A DNA stretch of 20,348 bases from a virus. The notes beneath the pieces were generated by a model. It did no database searches. It was given only the letters and a program-made list of their open reading frames with translations, and had not been told where the DNA came from. Where the stretch lies: IMG/VR virus record IMGVR_UViG_3300025769_001110, positions 1 through 20,348 of that record; one strand, 5' to 3'. Shown piece after piece: positions 3,683 to 18,151 of this stretch. The position numbers and the translations under genes are program-made. Each line of letters starts with the position of its first letter. Position 1 is the stretch's first letter.

Positions 3683-4930
3683 TTAATTTCTTCCCGGTTT
3701 ATCCCATCCTTTTAATATATCAGGCGAAAAGTTGTTATAGGAGAATTCCATCCTATCAACAATCTTTACCGCGTCACCACCAAGTTTATCAATAGCAACG
3801 TAACCTTCTTCTCCAGTTACCTTATATCCATTACGAGTCTTAACAAATGTTTTAACTTTAGCAAGTTTGTTAAGAGTATTTATAAGTTTTAATTTTGCAA
3901 GAACTATAACTTTTTGTAATTCAAACATATTTATGAGAGATTTTTTATTTTTTTCACTAAAGAATGATAAAATATTATCTAATTTTTGTCGCTGAGTTGC
4001 TTTTCCTTTTTCAGATTTTCTCTTTGCAATCTCTTTTGCATACTTAAGCCGTATCCACCTAATGAGTTTATCGGCGTGTCCTCTTGAATCTCCAGGGACT
4101 TGTCCCTTTCTGACATACTTATTATTGAATTGCTCAATGAGGCGCGGTAACTCATCCGATTTCTCGAGCGTCCTAAGTGTGGATCCTGCGATTTGATTAA
4201 AGAGTTTACCAGCTTGCGATAGATATTCATTCACTTTCTCCGTATCATTTTTGTTCATAGTAACATTTGTCATATCTCTAAGCATTGCATCTTGCGACCA
4301 AACGCCTTTAGATTTATTTAATTTAGAAACATTTACACCATATGAAGCTTTCATAGTTTCAAATGTTTTACCTGTATATGTAGTATGCCAAACAATTCCA
4401 ATCTTAGATTTCTTAATCTCTGCAGCAGCGGCTGAATTACTTGGCACAGCATATACAATAGTATTAGGATGAAATGTAACATAAGATTCGCCATCAATCT
4501 TTTTAGTTGTGATATCACCTGGTCCATATAAGAAGTCACCTTGTACGACACCCTTGATACCTAAAGCTGGAAGTTCTTGTAAAGCTATTTTAAGCTTATC
4601 AGCAAGATCGCCAGAAGTATCAGCATCCACATCACCGGCTGTTTTATATACTTTTGGATTTTTATTAAAGATTCCCTTTTTAGCGACAAAAAACTTTCCA
4701 TCAGATGGATCAATACCAGCAAAGATAGCAGGAGCGCCATCCCACTTGACAGATACACTACCATCGTGAGATCCTTTCAGCATGTTTCTTAATTCTCGCA
4801 AAGCATTAATAGCTTCCCTTGTTCCGTTTACACCACCATATAATACTTTATCCTCTATATGAGTCATATGAGTATTTTTTTGTTCTGTTATATATGAGCT
4901 AAAATTTTCCATATGTGTATTATATTCCAT
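3683..4930 (-). CDS. DUF6267-like protein with ligase-type KxDG motif; candidate packaged enzyme
   Basis: 415 residues, matching my memory of a marine-phage family that I believe is called DUF6267. VKWDGAPAIF (61-70) resembles motif I (KxDG) of covalent nucleotidyltransferases such as DNA and RNA ligases, with Lys62 as the candidate nucleotide-linked residue. KGVVQGDFLYG (126-136) could be the motif III equivalent. I do not see a clear motif IV or V, so ligase activity is a hypothesis. The C-terminal half is helical and basic. Met7 begins MENFSSYITEQ, a good capsid-targeting-like N-terminus with Ile-x-Glu, so the real start may be the ATG at 4912; neither ATG has a convincing ribosome binding site. 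It lies directly downstream of the 4951-6015 gene. Confidence 0.85.
   Translation of the reverse strand: MEYNTHMENFSSYITEQKNTHMTHIEDKVLYGGVNGTREAINALRELRNMLKGSHDGSVSVKWDGAPAIFAGIDPSDGKFFVAKKGIFNKNPKVYKTAGDVDADTSGDLADKLKIALQELPALGIKGVVQGDFLYGPGDITTKKIDGESYVTFHPNTIVYAVPSNSAAAAEIKKSKIGIVWHTTYTGKTFETMKASYGVNVSKLNKSKGVWSQDAMLRDMTNVTMNKNDTEKVNEYLSQAGKLFNQIAGSTLRTLEKSDELPRLIEQFNNKYVRKGQVPGDSRGHADKLIRWIRLKYAKEIAKRKSEKGKATQRQKLDNILSFFSEKNKKSLINMFELQKVIVLAKLKLINTLNKLAKVKTFVKTRNGYKVTGEEGYVAIDKLGGDAVKIVDRMEFSYNNFSPDILKGWDKPGRN
3877..3884 (-). promoter_or_regulatory. Possible internal T4-type late promoter
   Basis: A perfect TATAAATA on the minus strand inside the DUF6267-like gene, about 195 bp upstream of the gene starting at 3682. 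It could give extra late transcription of the downstream virion genes. An 8-bp AT-rich match inside AT-rich coding DNA may also be chance. Confidence 0.35.
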
Positions 4931-8912: not shown

Positions 8913-9035
8913 TTATAATGACTTTAATGCGTGTGCAATCTTATCAATAAGCCATTTTTCGTAGGCGCTTGGTATCCAAGTTTCTTCACGCTTTAGCGTG
9001 TCGAACGCTTGCCACATTTTATCTTGTTCTTCCAT
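8913..9035 (-). CDS. 40-residue ORF overlapping the upstream gene
   Basis: Starts at the ATG 9035-9033 inside the end of 8993-9214 in another frame and runs past it for 80 bases. It encodes MEEQDKMWQAFDTLKREETW then IPSAYEKWLIDKIAHALKSL, an amphipathic, Trp-containing, likely helical protein with normal composition. It fills the stretch between the stop of 8993-9214 and the early promoter. A GAAGGG sequence lies upstream at slightly long spacing. I do not recognise it. The overlap of 43 bases is longer than usual here, which keeps confidence moderate. Confidence 0.5.
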   Translation of the reverse strand: MEEQDKMWQAFDTLKREETWIPSAYEKWLIDKIAHALKSL

Positions 9036-9214
9036 TCTTCTTCAAACCCTTCTTCTTTTTCATATAAAGGTGCGCCATTTCCTCCAGCATACCATAGACG
9101 TTTAAAATAACTATTGTATGATGAATAGGCTTGCTCATCACTTATATCGATGTGGCCTTTTACTAAATAATATATTCTATAAGCTTCTTTTAGATCTGGT
9201 TTATCATCCGTCAT
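8993..9214 (-). CDS. Small charged protein of unknown function
   Basis: 73 residues from the ATG at 9214, which overlaps the end of the upstream gene by 11 bases; ATGs at 9232 and 9256 would add 6 or 14 residues but overlap more and have no better ribosome binding site. The protein begins MTDDKPDLKEAYRIYYLVKG and continues with a Tyr/Trp-rich middle (SYNSYFKRLWYAGGNGAPLY) and a basic tail with one Cys. It is compact and probably helical. No family is recognised. A perfect hairpin, CACGCT-AA-AGCGTG, spans its stop codon (8987-9000), but the sequence after it is not U-rich, so it is not a standard terminator. Confidence 0.65.
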   Translation of the reverse strand: MTDDKPDLKEAYRIYYLVKGHIDISDEQAYSSYNSYFKRLWYAGGNGAPLYEKEEGFEEEWKNKIKCGKRSTR

Positions 9215-9857
9215 CAAACGCTTCTTGTTCATCTTTGGTTTTATATTGCCATTCATCAGTGTGTCCTACTGACCATTTAGGTTCAGTTTCAACTGCATAA
9301 TTTTGAGTGCATACTTTAAAATCTGGTGTCATTAATTTATCAGGAGTCAAGGAGCTATCACGCCATATGATCCTGTTGTTCGGCTGAGCAGCAAACTGAC
9401 CATTGTCTAATCTTAAAACATTAAATGATTTATGTTCTGGATCGTGTTCACTAAAATTTGTATCTAAAACAGAAGGATCTCTATGACAATTATCTATCGT
9501 AAATTCATATTCTCCTGGATGCATTTTCTTATCTTTACCAAAAAACTCAGCTCTACATAAAATTGGTTTTTCAATAACAGTAACATCATAATCAAAGCAA
9601 TCCCAAAGTTGGAGAACGTCAAGTGGTAAGAGATCGCCATGATCAGTTTTCCAAACAAATGCTGAGATAGGAAGTTTGTCAAATAACGCACCGTATTCTG
9701 TTAATAATGTTTCGAAGTACAGTGCTTTATACATTGTACTTTTAACACTTATCCATATGCCTGGTGTAAATTCGCCATGTCCATGTTCGAGATCATAAAG
9801 ATATTCTTTTCGAACATAGACATGGACTGGGGGGAGCGGGTGTACTAAAAATGCCAT
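9204..9857 (-). CDS. Conserved marine-phage protein of unknown function
   Basis: 217 residues from the ATG at 9857; an upstream TTG would add ten residues. The N-terminal third contains YVRKEYLYDLEHGHGEFTPG, WISVKS and the segment ALYFETLLTEYGALFDKLPI followed by SAFVWK, which I recall as a recurring module in pelagiphage and cyanophage hypothetical proteins. The C-terminal part is rich in aromatic residues and Asp, suggesting a beta-rich fold. No catalytic motif is seen. The ATG lies four bases after the stop of 9862-10116, and the nearest AAGGA is about 14 bases upstream, so translation probably depends on coupling. Confidence 0.8.
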   Translation of the reverse strand: MAFLVHPLPPVHVYVRKEYLYDLEHGHGEFTPGIWISVKSTMYKALYFETLLTEYGALFDKLPISAFVWKTDHGDLLPLDVLQLWDCFDYDVTVIEKPILCRAEFFGKDKKMHPGEYEFTIDNCHRDPSVLDTNFSEHDPEHKSFNVLRLDNGQFAAQPNNRIIWRDSSLTPDKLMTPDFKVCTQNYAVETEPKWSVGHTDEWQYKTKDEQEAFDDG

Positions 9858-13671: not shown

Positions 13672-13695
13672 AATTGTCTCCCTTAATTTATGGTA

Positions 13696-13827
13696 CCACT
13701 TTTCTGTTGCTAAGCAAGTGGCCAGCTCCCTGTGATTATGCAGCTAGTGCAAATCCAGAAGGTGCAAAGTTATTGTTTGCATTTATGTTTTATAGACTCA
13801 AATACCAGTCGATCCTATTTCACCCCC
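13696..13827 (-). ncRNA. ssrA: tmRNA coding piece with proteolysis tag ANNNFAPSGFALAA
   Basis: Begins with the 5' acceptor strand GGGGGUG and the D-region GAAAUAGGAUCGACUGG. The tag frame starts at the resume codon GCA (13780-13778) and ends with UAA (13738-13736), encoding ANNNFAPSGFALAA, with the ALAA end recognised by ClpXP-type proteases. The stop codon lies in the loop of a helix, CUAGCU (13747-13742) with AGCUGG (13727-13722), as in helix 5 of other tmRNAs. A further stem CCACUU/AAGUGG (13721-13716 with 13701-13696) follows. Only 47 nt separate G1 from the resume codon, too short for an obvious pseudoknot PK1. GUAU (13805-13802) and GUCUAU (13797-13792) can pair with the acceptor piece. 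Confidence 0.88.
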
Positions 13828-13838
13828 ATAAAAACACA

Positions 13839-14030
13839 CTACTTAGAATCTAAAACTTCTTTACATTTACTTGATGCATAAGTTTCAAACCAACGAGGAA
13901 CAAAGGCATGTATGAAACAAGCATATGCTGCTTTTTCCAACTGCCAAGAAATCCACATAGCTCGTTTGAAATGTTGCCAACGTGTCATGCCGGCTTGTTC
14001 TACATGTAACTTACATTTCTTACTAATCAT
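13839..14030 (-). CDS. DUF6356-like small protein encoded inside the tmRNA intervening segment
   Basis: 63 residues from the ATG at 14030, chosen because AAGGA lies six bases upstream and because the longer frame (ATG at 14099) would translate through the tmRNA acceptor piece. The pattern TRWQHFKRAMWISWQLEKAA then YACFIHAFVPRWFETYAS matches my memory of the DUF6356 family (HF..A, a hydrophobic helix, A..IHA..P..FET..S), common in alphaproteobacteria; its function is unknown. It has one amphipathic-to-membrane-like helix and a Cys-containing end. It lies wholly within the 223-nt segment that must be removed to mature the two-piece tmRNA, so making this protein and maturing that same tmRNA molecule may exclude each other. 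Confidence 0.82.
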   Translation of the reverse strand: MISKKCKLHVEQAGMTRWQHFKRAMWISWQLEKAAYACFIHAFVPRWFETYASSKCKEVLDSK

Positions 14031-14050
14031 GTTTTTCCTTAATGTGTTTT

Positions 14051-14105
14051 TGGTGGAGGTGCTGGGTTCTGCCCCCAGGTCCTGTATATCCTCTAACATC
14101 TATGT
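14051..14105 (-). ncRNA. ssrA: tmRNA acceptor piece
   Basis: The 3' end is CACCUCC-A-CCA (14061-14051). Immediately 5' is a T-arm-like hairpin, CUGGG-GGCAGAA-CCCAG (14078-14062), with a 7-nt loop that lacks the usual UUC of tRNA T-loops. Upstream, AUAGAU (14103-14098) and AUAUAC (14089-14084) can pair with GUCUAU and GUAU of the coding piece, forming a P2-like long-range helix. The 5' end is placed at the start point predicted from the promoter at 14111-14139. Confidence 0.85.
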
Positions 14106-14110
14106 CTATT

Positions 14111-14586: not shown

Positions 14587-14731
14587 ATCCAAGTCTCCTC
14601 ATTATTTTCATTCTTTCGTGATAGTGCATTTTTGGCCATTTGCTTATTTCTTCTTGAGTTCGACCACAACCAACACATTCTTTTGTTTTTCTATCAATTC
14701 GACATATCTGTACGCATGGTGTTACGTACAT
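14552..14731 (-). CDS. DUF1289 family protein (small Cys-rich)
   Basis: 59 residues from the ATG at 14731, which overlaps the SleB stop as TGATG and has AGGTGG upstream; a GTG three codons earlier is the alternative. It has the family's four cysteines and signature: TPCVQICRIDRKTKECVGCG (Cys 6, 10, 19, 22) then RTxEEIxxW and a helix ending in RRL, with a basic tail. DUF1289 proteins are small, common in proteobacteria and presumed to bind a metal through the Cys quartet; a molecular function is not established. The position between a cell-wall hydrolase and DUF3310 does not clarify its role. Confidence 0.9.
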   Translation of the reverse strand: MYVTPCVQICRIDRKTKECVGCGRTQEEISKWPKMHYHERMKIMRRLGYGKRRQRSRIR

Positions 14732-15216
14732 CAATCCCACCTACCAGTCCAGACATAGAATACATGTAGTCCAATAATCTTACTTACGGTTAAAGATTTT
14801 TCTTTATTCCAAAACGGATCTACATAATTAGCGTGATAAAATGTAGCACCCTGTGACGGATCAATAGTGTTACCGATCATAACGTCACGCGCAATAACCA
14901 TAGCTCTATCCCAAGCACGCTTTTCTCTTGGCGTATGGTCCTTTACAAGAAACGTCCAACTAAATTGTTTATATTGATAGACAACGTCACATATGCTATC
15001 AGGAAACTTTGCGTGGTTAACGCGATTCATTGTTACGTGTGCCACAGCAATTTGTCCTTCTATCCTTTCGCTTCTTGCTTCGTGATAGACATTCATTGCC
15101 AGGCAATTTTGCTGTTTTGGATCTACTTCAGGTAGACCCAGCATAGCGATGCTAAATAAGCCTGCTGTTATACTCATAGTGATTAACCCACTTGTTATGG
15201 AAATAAGTCTGTTCAT
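14731..15216 (-). CDS. Cell wall hydrolase, SleB family, with N-terminal membrane anchor (endolysin candidate)
   Basis: 161 residues. After an N-terminal hydrophobic segment (LISITSGLITMSITAGLFSI, about 4-23) comes a SleB-type hydrolase domain: CLAMNVYHEARSE (38-50) with the catalytic Glu of YHEAR, GQIAVAHVTMNRV, VVYQYKQFSWT, and GATFYHANYVDPFW. SleB enzymes cut peptidoglycan glycan strands. The weakly hydrophobic, Gly/Ser/Thr-containing N-terminus could be a signal-anchor-release sequence, keeping the lysin tethered until lysis. No good ribosome binding site precedes the ATG at 15216. The gene sits behind a sigma70-type promoter (15257-15285) rather than a late box, unusual for a lysis gene. 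Confidence 0.9.
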   Translation of the reverse strand: MNRLISITSGLITMSITAGLFSIAMLGLPEVDPKQQNCLAMNVYHEARSERIEGQIAVAHVTMNRVNHAKFPDSICDVVYQYKQFSWTFLVKDHTPREKRAWDRAMVIARDVMIGNTIDPSQGATFYHANYVDPFWNKEKSLTVSKIIGLHVFYVWTGRWD

Positions 15217-15834: not shown

Positions 15835-16014
15835 ATGTGGGTATTGCTATGGGTACAATTAATGGCAACACAAAATGTAAATCACTTTCATATTGGTAAT
15901 TATTCAAAAGAAGTAGATTGCCAGTCAGCTATGAGTGCTGCGGCTGTTTTAGTTACTAGTAAGAATGAAAGTATTGCATGTTTATATGTAGACATTAATG
16001 ACATTAGAAATTAA
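15835..16014 (+). CDS. Small exported or membrane protein with two cysteines
   Basis: 59 residues starting directly after the stop of 15352-15834 (TAAATG). A short hydrophobic N-terminus (MWVLLWVQLMATQ) could be a signal or anchor, followed by a small domain, HFHIGNYSKEVDCQSAMSAA then AVLVTSKNESIACLYVDIN, with Cys29 and Cys49 well placed for a disulfide in the periplasm. I recall similar two-Cys small proteins next to this gene type in other marine phages. Its stop shares TTAA with the stop of the convergent methyltransferase gene. It is probably translated by coupling, since no separate ribosome binding site beyond AAGGGAAA at 15821-15828 is needed. Confidence 0.75.
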   Translation: MWVLLWVQLMATQNVNHFHIGNYSKEVDCQSAMSAAAVLVTSKNESIACLYVDINDIRN

Positions 16015-17198
16015 ATAAAAGCTTCCAAAGTATTAGGAGCCTTTTCTATATTGTATGATCGAGTCTTGTTATCTTGCAAGATATATTCTGCTTCGACCAT
16101 TTGTAAGTCACCACCTAAAAATCTTTTTACATTTTGTGCCATGTCCATTGCTGTCGTAACGGGCACGTTCTGACATATCATATTTAAGTTCTTTAGTCCT
16201 CCTTGTAATATAAAGTCTTTTGGCATCTTCATTATATCCAATGCTTCACGAGTATTAATGTATCGATCTTCATCAGGGTGACATAACGTATGAGGGAAGT
16301 GACCAACGAAAGCACCAATACGATCTTTACCCATCTCAGTCATTTTTCTCATTATGTTTCCACCAGCCGATAACTTATCAAACATATAGTTACACTTCTC
16401 AGAAAGCTTCTGGTGTCCCCTTTCTGCCATCCAAACGCCCACATCCTTATAAGATACACCTTTATCTTCAATATAGTGCAATGGATTGGTTGTCTTTTCA
16501 ATTAGCTGAAAGAACTCAGGATGAGTAATTCCACCATGCATTTCTTCTAATACGTATTGATAGTAAGGATTGTCCGAAGGTTTCTGTTTACTATTTATTT
16601 GTTCGAACATTGGATCTGGTTCGTTTGTTGCTGATGAACGAATCTGATCTTCGATCTTAGTGTATGGTCGATTGTAATACGATAAGATCGGTACAGAGTT
16701 TCCTTTCCAAAAGAAATAGAACGTCCTATCTCTAACCTGACTTAATCCGTGGAGGATTGATTTGGTTTTGTAGATGGAGAAGACGTAACCGTTTCTTCTT
16801 CCGATTTCTCTAAGTTTTCCCACAACTGGTTCTCCCATTCGACTAGCGAGCCGTGGAGCATTTTCACCCCAGAACACAGTGGGTTGGATTGATTCGAGCA
16901 CATACTCGGCAGACTTGACCATCCAATCATTAGTACTGCTATCACCGCTGCTAGTAGGGCTAAGTGAAGAAAGGCCCGCACAAGGGCAGACAGTATTGAC
17001 CACATCCACTCTGCTAGGCGCAGTGTCCCCTTTATCAAGCAGTAAATAAGGAATATTATTATCGTAATAGTTAAGAAGTTGGCTATCATTTGCTATAAAA
17101 TCCGTGTAAGAGAGGATGTATTCGGGTCTTTTCCCGAATACGTTTTCCATTGCTATTGTTTCACCACCGATAAGAGGAACAATACTTGCATAATTCAT
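16011..17198 (-). CDS. DNA (cytosine-5)-methyltransferase
   Basis: 395 residues from the ATG at 17198, which overlaps the epimerase stop (TAATG) and has AAGGTG upstream; a TTG ten codons earlier is less likely. Recognisable C5-methyltransferase motifs: SIVPLIGGETIAMENVF (5-21) as a divergent motif I; VNTVCPCAGLS (67-77) as motif IV with catalytic Cys73 in a Pro-Cys-Ala context instead of the usual Pro-Cys-Gln; GENAPRL (111-117) as the ENV equivalent; QVRDRTFYFF (154-163) as QxRxR; and near the C-terminus INTREALDIMKMPKDF and NVPVTTAMDMAQNV as motifs IX and X. It would methylate cytosines in a sequence-specific way, probably protecting phage DNA from host restriction. No partner endonuclease is seen. 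Confidence 0.88.
   Translation of the reverse strand: MNYASIVPLIGGETIAMENVFGKRPEYILSYTDFIANDSQLLNYYDNNIPYLLLDKGDTAPSRVDVVNTVCPCAGLSSLSPTSSGDSSTNDWMVKSAEYVLESIQPTVFWGENAPRLASRMGEPVVGKLREIGRRNGYVFSIYKTKSILHGLSQVRDRTFYFFWKGNSVPILSYYNRPYTKIEDQIRSSATNEPDPMFEQINSKQKPSDNPYYQYVLEEMHGGITHPEFFQLIEKTTNPLHYIEDKGVSYKDVGVWMAERGHQKLSEKCNYMFDKLSAGGNIMRKMTEMGKDRIGAFVGHFPHTLCHPDEDRYINTREALDIMKMPKDFILQGGLKNLNMICQNVPVTTAMDMAQNVKRFLGGDLQMVEAEYILQDNKTRSYNIEKAPNTLEAFI
16015..16046. terminator. Bidirectional terminator between convergent genes
   Basis: AAAAG-C-TTCC (16017-16026) pairs with GGAG-C-CTTTT (16036-16045) with one C:C mismatch and one G:U pair; the loop is AAAGTATTA. T-rich runs follow on both strands. 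It lies inside the last codons of the methyltransferase gene and serves both transcripts. Confidence 0.7.
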
Positions 17199-18151
17199 TA
17201 ATTCACCTTGTAATAATCTTTGTACCAAGTGACAAATTTTTCCACGCCATCAGCAATAGGTGTTGTTGGATTGTAACCTAACTTTTGAAGTTTAGTCGTA
17301 TCTGACCATGTGGCTGGAGTATCTGCCGGATGTGCTTCACAAGGATTACGTATTGCTGTGCGACCAAGATTCTTTTCAATATGATCTACAAAATCGAGTA
17401 ACTGTACTTGTTGTCCATATCCGATATTATATATCTCATGATAACGATCACTATCTGTGACAACTTTATCTATCACTAAGCTGATACCATGCACGATATC
17501 TTCAACATAAGTAAAGTCACGTTTCATATCACCGAAGTTGTATAAGTCAATTGGTTTACCCTTTACAATATTATCAGTAAACTTAAAGAGCGCCATGTCT
17601 GGTCTTCCATACGGACCATACACAGTAAAGAACCGTAGACCAGCAGAACGTATAATCTTTGAATGGCCAAACTGACATTCATTTACTTTTTTAGACCAAC
17701 CATATGGATTGTTTTGATTTTCAGGTTTATCATGTTCATTCCAAGGTAAAGGCTGTCCATGCATTACACATGATGATGAAGCATATACTATAGGAATATT
17801 AAGTCCTTTAACTTCTAATGCTTCGATAAGACGCTGTGTACCAGTAATGTTTGTGTCAATATAGTGCTGTGGTTCTTCCATAGCATGACGCGGGTTTGCA
17901 TATGCAGCAAGGTGTAAGACTACATCTACATCATCAAACAAATGCTTATCAGCATGTATGTCTTGAATATCGAGCTGAAACGTATCAACTCCATAGTCTT
18001 CTCTTAATATTCTTGCTCTTTCTCTTTTTAGTTCTACATCGTAGTAGTCATTAAAATTATCGACACCTACTACCGCGTGTCCTTTTTCAGCATAGTATTT
18101 TGCTGAGTGGAAGCCTATCATGCCGGCTTGGCCTGTGATAAATATTTTCAT
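17198..18151 (-). CDS. NAD-dependent epimerase, UDP-glucuronate 4-epimerase-like
   Basis: 317 residues, full length for extended short-chain dehydrogenases. The Rossmann motif GxxGxxG is at Gly7-Gly10-Gly13 (FITGQAGMIGFHSA), the active-site Tyr150 and Lys154 lie in NPYGWSKKVNE, and SSS is at 125-127. RFFTVYGPYGRPDMALFKFT (about 173-192) is a hallmark of UDP-glucuronate 4-epimerases, which interconvert UDP-glucuronate and UDP-galacturonate; related UDP-sugar epimerases remain possible. The start overlaps the stop of the glycosyltransferase gene by four bases (ATGA), suggesting that the two supply and transfer the same sugar. In marine phages such genes are thought to modify virion proteins, DNA or the host surface; the target is unknown here. 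Confidence 0.9.
   Translation of the reverse strand: MKIFITGQAGMIGFHSAKYYAEKGHAVVGVDNFNDYYDVELKRERARILREDYGVDTFQLDIQDIHADKHLFDDVDVVLHLAAYANPRHAMEEPQHYIDTNITGTQRLIEALEVKGLNIPIVYASSSCVMHGQPLPWNEHDKPENQNNPYGWSKKVNECQFGHSKIIRSAGLRFFTVYGPYGRPDMALFKFTDNIVKGKPIDLYNFGDMKRDFTYVEDIVHGISLVIDKVVTDSDRYHEIYNIGYGQQVQLLDFVDHIEKNLGRTAIRNPCEAHPADTPATWSDTTKLQKLGYNPTTPIADGVEKFVTWYKDYYKVN

Follow-up and report, generated by a model that had tools for sequence, protein, structure and literature searches.

Permuted tmRNAs and protein genes within tmRNA genes

Two-piece tmRNAs of marine phages were published in 2022, that of Methylophilales phage Melnitz being an ssrA of the alphaproteobacterial type (PMC9004378, MZ577097), and a phage-borne permuted tmRNA is therefore not new in itself. 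The locus described here, in a 20,348-nucleotide stretch of viral DNA (IMGVR_UViG_3300025769_001110, hereafter the window), resembles the Melnitz tmRNA in its permuted alphaproteobacterial-type form, in belonging to a related T4-like marine phage, and in having an open reading frame (ORF) in the intervening segment (IVS, or spacer) between the two pieces, but differs in the cargo of that segment (a DUF6356 protein rather than one of the KYLxG family) and in having lost the longer region that Melnitz keeps before the tag. With the two-piece tmRNAs of Alphaproteobacteria (RF01849, RF04321; Caulobacter, Pelagibacter) it shares the permuted layout, acceptor stem, T-arm, D-loop, tag and a terminal helix of the IVS, whereas the bacterial IVSs are short and without genes (see below) and the window tmRNA is without PK1.

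A protein gene that sits within a tmRNA gene and is missing from the mature RNA is also known from the group I intron that carries a LAGLIDADG homing endonuclease gene (PMC11915505); however, that intron is self-splicing and lies in the T-loop, whereas the window has the IVS of a permuted gene, with a cargo that is not an endonuclease and that would be removed by tRNA enzymes. On the contents of IVSs, a tmRNA database paper of 2025 mentions one MAG with a tRNA-Ala gene and a repeat element in HGM16780 (PMC11915505), which are extra IVS sequences as in the window, but single cases for which no protein-coding cargo is described. A search of open-licence papers found no protein gene reported from the spacer of a permuted tmRNA, and a protein gene in the spacer of a phage permuted tmRNA, exchangeable between relatives, has apparently not been described before.

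The permuted tmRNA of the window

The window covers part of the genome of a T4-like (Kyanoviridae-type) marine phage, whose DUF6267 protein is 64% identical to that of phage C48C1, 46% to that of Melnitz, and 38% to that of Pelagibacter phage HTVC008M, a relative that has a two-piece tmRNA with a short spacer. Other phage genes on the minus strand encode a sugar-nucleotide epimerase (17198-18151), a C5 cytosine methylase (16011-17228) and a cell-wall hydrolase (14731-15216). SmpB was sought in 12 phage records and none was found.

A preliminary description of the window had placed a permuted tmRNA with an alanine identity pair at 13691-14105 on the minus strand, and its coordinates and the parts that it named are right (Table 1). 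Rfam (cmscan) aligns 14103-13736 (minus strand) with the full length (1-213) of RF04321, tmRNA_permuted, at 78.3 bits (E 8e-14, gathering cut-off 47 bits), and 14088-13800 (minus strand) with RF01849, alpha_tmRNA, at 65.2 bits (E 4e-16, cut-off 50 bits), so the covariance-model search that the description had proposed is positive twice over. ARAGORN, which it had also proposed, reported no tmRNA in the window, and an Rfam model is therefore needed to detect it. The two acceptor strands form seven of seven pairs, G3:U70 included, so that this alanine identity element and the encoded CCA are both present; the tag ANNNFAPSGFALAA has an Ala resume codon and a hydrophobic ALAA end, and GGATCGAC can be read directly in the tmRNA sequence as well. 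These sequence features confirm that the phage carries a permuted, two-piece tmRNA of the alanine type that encodes a tag; its activity in trans-translation is putative.

Table 1. Features of the tmRNA locus in the window, in order of transcription (IVS, intervening segment)
Feature	Position	Strand	Basis
3' (acceptor) piece of tmRNA	14051..14109	-	Rfam matches, sequence, precursor fold
H2 strand ATAGAC/ATAGAT in 3' piece	14109-14098	-	Rfam matches, sequence, precursor fold
T-arm CTGGG-GGCAGAA-CCCAG	14078-14062	-	sequence
Acceptor strand CACCTCC of 3' piece	14061-14055	-	sequence
A, then encoded CCA	A 14054, CCA 14053-14051	-	sequence
IVS, 223 nt, not in mature tmRNA; cargo slot	13828..14050	-	position between CCA and RNase P side of acceptor; L334 comparison
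Predicted clamp, 5' strand AAAACACATT	14041..14050	-	duplex prediction, fold, covariation over 39 IVS clusters
Shine-Dalgarno-like AAGG of nested gene, directly inside clamp	14037..14040	-	sequence
Nested DUF6356 gene, 63 aa (MISKKCKL...VLDSK), ATG at 14030, stop TAG 13841-13839	13839..14030	-	Pfam, related loci, pN/pS
Predicted clamp, 3' strand AGTGTGTTTTT, overlaps stop codon	13830..13840	-	duplex prediction, fold, covariation
5' piece start GGGGGTG (13827-13821) and D-loop region AAATAGGATCGAC	13808..13827	-	Rfam, sequence
H2 strand GTCTAT in 5' piece	13792..13797	-	Rfam alignment, fold
Tag frame GCA..GCA TAA, ANNNFAPSGFALAA and stop	13736..13780	-	sequence; inside Rfam alignment
3' stem CCACTT/AAGTGG of 5' piece (remnant pseudoknot/terminal stem)	13696..13721	-	fold; relatives

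PK1, usual in alphaproteobacterial tmRNA, is absent upstream of the tag in the window, where about 11 nt lead from the H2 strand to the resume codon (13797-13780) and the Rfam alignment has a deletion. RF04321 models the pairs of the tRNA domain only, and PK1 is not among its defining features. PK1 is also missing in L002, L005, L006, L017, L041 and L334, and is kept by L008, L013 and other phage tmRNAs; since L334 has an empty slot, the loss of PK1 was not caused by insertion. The 3' stem has a counterpart, TCACTT/AAGTGA, in L005 and L006.

Loss of acceptor-stem pairing in related phages had been named as grounds for rejecting the tmRNA, but relatives found by the nested protein alone keep the pairing by compensatory changes, in four variants (GGGGGTG/CACCTCC, GGGGCAG/CTGCTCC, GGGGCTG/CAGCTCC and GGGGGAG/CTCCTCC), which argues that the RNA has been kept. 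Only these protein-found loci are independent evidence of acceptor covariation, acceptor pairing having been used to locate the spacers of loci found by pattern.

Other parts of the preliminary description fared less well, and its interpretation as a whole is partly supported. A matching promoter was claimed at the start of the tmRNA, where a consensus scan of this strand finds no sigma-70 promoter; the sole promoter-like element there is the late-promoter-like TTAAATAA at about 14116-14109, which resembles T4 TATAAATA. The phage does carry a permuted tmRNA, but the suggestion that this copy points to the host is weak, because Melnitz, with an OM43 (Methylophilales) host, carries a tmRNA of the alphaproteobacterial type too (PMC9004378). 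Likewise, the segment holds a tmRNA as stated, but to call it RNA between protein genes was to overlook the DUF6356 gene inside it, between both tmRNA pieces.

A DUF6356 gene between the two pieces

The nested protein matches PF19883 (DUF6356) over residues 8-59 at 46.4 bits (Pfam cut-off 24.4), and a search of viral contigs with it found 46 related loci. The layout is shared by divergent phages: DUF6356 lies exactly between the tmRNA pieces in L002, L003, L005, L006, L008, L013 and L041; L004 has the same nested layout as far as the contig end, L017 and L019 have DUF6356 together with a second small gene in one spacer of 443 nt, and elsewhere the gene is free-standing. Copies in the slot have pN/pS of 0.05-0.19 at synonymous divergence of up to 0.8, and the window gene compared with the other slot copies has 0.13-0.19 or lower; by this codon-level measure DUF6356 is evidently under strong purifying selection at the level of the protein. 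Among INPHARED phages there was no match by tblastn of the nested protein or by distant blastn of the locus, nor did the DUF6356 alignment retrieve any relative from genome contigs. An AlphaFold model is all-helix (pLDDT 82, pTM 0.46) and says little on function. The T-loop of the window tmRNA is intact (14073-14067) without a group I intron, Rfam finds no intron family in the window, and the slot holds no LAGLIDADG or other endonuclease ORF, the ORF being DUF6356 (Pfam).

Length and coding content of spacers in phages and bacteria

Spacers of phages and bacteria were collected by pattern scans with a single D-loop signature, and percentages describe these samples. Among the matches listed, at least 278 phage loci, at least 245 of them distinct, have a readable spacer, with a median length of 74 nt and a maximum of 499; the IVS is 130 nt or longer in 46 of the 245 distinct phage permuted tmRNAs and in none of the 100 distinct loci that the same signature finds in bacterial genomes, where it measures 11-71 nt (Fisher p 8e-8). 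The bacterial sample consists mostly of Alphaproteobacteria, Pelagibacteraceae included, and the viral contigs may contain some prophage or host stretches; in the samples examined, long IVSs filled by a predicted gene are restricted to viral contigs.

The long IVSs, those found through DUF6356 included, form 39 clusters, and in 31 of these the ORF is longer than in dinucleotide shuffles (p<0.05). A sense ORF covers more than 70% of the IVS in 34 of the 39, the median cover being 0.89 for sense ORFs versus 0.43 for antisense ORFs, and a Shine-Dalgarno-like motif precedes 28 of 34 slot ORFs, versus a fraction of 0.19 at random control positions. Slot ORFs end within the spacer in 11 clusters, at the TGAT that precedes the acceptor in 8, at the D-loop TAG in 11 and deeper inside the tmRNA in 4. 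Rfam confirms the tmRNA in each of the 16 nested loci that were sampled. IVSs of 60-100 nt have ORFs at chance level only when compared with shuffles, and what is said here of the group is therefore limited to IVSs of at least 130 nt; some single slot ORFs, above all in IVSs shorter than 150 nt, may be due to chance. With a second tmRNA signature (..AATGGTTTCGAC), 12 permuted-like loci were listed, none with a credible nested ORF. In L065 a reading frame at 4150-4540, which may start at a GTG, stays open across the acceptor piece and the whole spacer as far as the D-loop stop, so that tmRNA sequence may there encode the N-terminus of a protein.

Exchange of cargo between related tmRNAs

The cargo of the slot comes from many unrelated families of small proteins, for which PHROGs gives no function. 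Besides DUF6356 (the window and its relatives, with a remote member in L190) there is a membrane-type protein (L100, L017), the 'WSICAD' protein (L104, L108, L154, L178), the DFHWISW protein (L056, L089, L243), the KYLxG family (L095, L313, L358 and the cultured phage Melnitz), an HNH-like protein below the Pfam cut-off in a 471-nt IVS (L240), and cargoes of paired loci (L103/L346, L071/L305, L054/L218). A free-standing homologue of the L218/L054 cargo occurs in the window itself (8993-9256, minus strand; 44% identity over 43 aa, E 7e-9), and cargo genes thus occur outside the slot as well.

What speaks most strongly for a slot is that nearly identical tmRNAs hold empty, filled or different spacers. 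The tmRNAs of L305 (a 150-nt spacer with an ORF) and L360 (37 nt) are 96% identical, those of L118 and L350 are 95% identical around 160-nt spacers with unrelated ORFs, and identity is 93% both between L008 (DUF6356) and L057 (78 nt) and between L240 (HNH-like) and L222 (67 nt); the window tmRNA is 91% identical over 185 nt to that of L334, whose IVS has 78 nt, with compensated changes in the acceptor and T-stem.

The other slots led to the named phages RcSimone-Hastad, DSS3P8, RcXuper, Phosso and Melnitz, and only Melnitz has an ORF that clearly fills the IVS: the 142-nt IVS holds an ORF of the KYLxG family that runs on into the tmRNA. The Melnitz record (MZ577097) annotates the tmRNA without an inner ORF, and the paper (PMC9004378) describes no gene inside it either. 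In Sinorhizobium phage Phosso (L489, record 348628-351665) the permuted tmRNA, which is not annotated, has a spacer of 410 nt that no single long ORF fills. In L118 a glutamine riboswitch (Rfam; 2150-2198) immediately precedes the filled tmRNA, and in Melnitz one lies downstream (L488, 1856-1904). L190 (IMGVR_UViG_3300008120_000431) has 17 tRNA genes within about 9 kb, together with a permuted tmRNA into which the remote DUF6356 gene of the spacer extends.

A predicted clamp at the ends of the spacer

The ends of the spacer are predicted to pair into a clamp helix of roughly 10 bp. At least nine of ten clamp positions are paired in 33 of the 39 clusters, versus 21% for mismatched spacer ends, and across the 39 at least four standard pair types occur at every position from 4 to 8. 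In its minimum-energy structure (z -2.85), the precursor of the window stacks the acceptor stem, clamp and H2, and the ORF forms the loop. The ends of bacterial spacers form a terminal helix whose energy is similar; the clamp may therefore have no role beyond processing, and it seems that phages have made the loop longer and placed genes in it. As the Shine-Dalgarno motif of the window gene lies just inside the clamp and not within it, its sequestration would be weaker.

A dual-function precursor and its alternatives

We favour, at a probability of roughly 0.72, a dual-function precursor, a permuted tmRNA whose IVS is an exchangeable slot for small genes and which serves as mRNA first and as tmRNA after processing. 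The tmRNA parts, the selection on the nested protein, the predicted clamp and the exchange of cargo are read from sequence and its comparison; that translation comes before processing is what we infer. The clamp would extend the acceptor stem past a small internal loop that contains the CCA, making the gene the loop of a tRNA-like hairpin. In the transcript's first role, as mRNA, ribosomes would load on the Shine-Dalgarno motif beside or inside the 5' strand of the clamp before synthesis of its 3' strand is complete, translate the loop, and terminate at the stop codon at the clamp's foot. Clamp and acceptor stem would then close, RNase P would cut before GGGGG, 3' processing would expose the CCA, and the mature two-piece tmRNA would work with the SmpB of the host. 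The phage would gain a small protein from RNA that is otherwise waste, its yield tied to tmRNA synthesis. For cargoes with a stop inside the tmRNA, of which the window cargo is not one, the RNase P cut would leave the spacer as an mRNA with no stop codon, and maturation might thereby shut the cargo off. In E. coli the stop-less arfA message is repressed by trans-translation (PMC10107115); the proposed likeness, which is not one of homology, concerns only those cargoes, whereas that of the window keeps its own stop. Only tentatively would we extend the proposal to a general swappable cassette, in which clamp closure and RNase P switch the transcript from mRNA to tmRNA and, where the stop lies in the tmRNA, the two outputs control each other.

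The spacer ORF could also be an incidental passenger of a functional permuted tmRNA, the shared transcript saving space with no regulatory link, and with cargoes that are mutually unrelated, DUF6356 free-standing elsewhere, empty slots working equally well and a bacterial terminal helix of similar energy, this account keeps a substantial, if minority, share of our expectation; what tells against it is that Shine-Dalgarno motifs and stop codons lie repeatedly at or in the clamp, where interference between ribosomes and processing would be hard to avoid. It is improbable that the slot genes are mobile, homing-type inserts tolerated in a spacer that is removed anyway, for most cargoes, DUF6356 included, are without nuclease similarity and the window has no intron family, although cargo presence does vary among close tmRNAs and the HNH-like ORF of L240 is missing from the short spacer of its near-identical relative L222.

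Still less credible is that an insertion broke the tmRNA and left its halves as decaying remnants around a phage gene. The absence of PK1 in the window lineage, the failure of ARAGORN and a score of 78 bits, against 94-121 bits in other nested loci, would fit such decay, but the acceptor halves change in concert at loci detected through the protein alone, the tag and D-loop are intact, the 3' stem is compensated, the empty-slot relative L334 is also without PK1, and other filled loci reach 129 bits with alpha_tmRNA. An artefact of assembly or annotation, conceivable for IMG/VR contigs, which are metagenome assemblies, is refuted for practical purposes, for the arrangement recurs across many samples and also in cultured Melnitz, and there is selection at the codon level.

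Implications

ARAGORN misses many of these phage tmRNAs and the ORFs inside them may be passed over by gene callers, with the result that both are under-annotated, even in a cultured phage. A survey of spacers is a route to dozens of unknown small phage proteins. If the dual-function precursor is correct, a non-coding housekeeping RNA gene would serve these phages as a cassette for protein genes, which would mean genome compaction and possibly regulation, and a coupling of tmRNA processing to translation of the spacer becomes testable.
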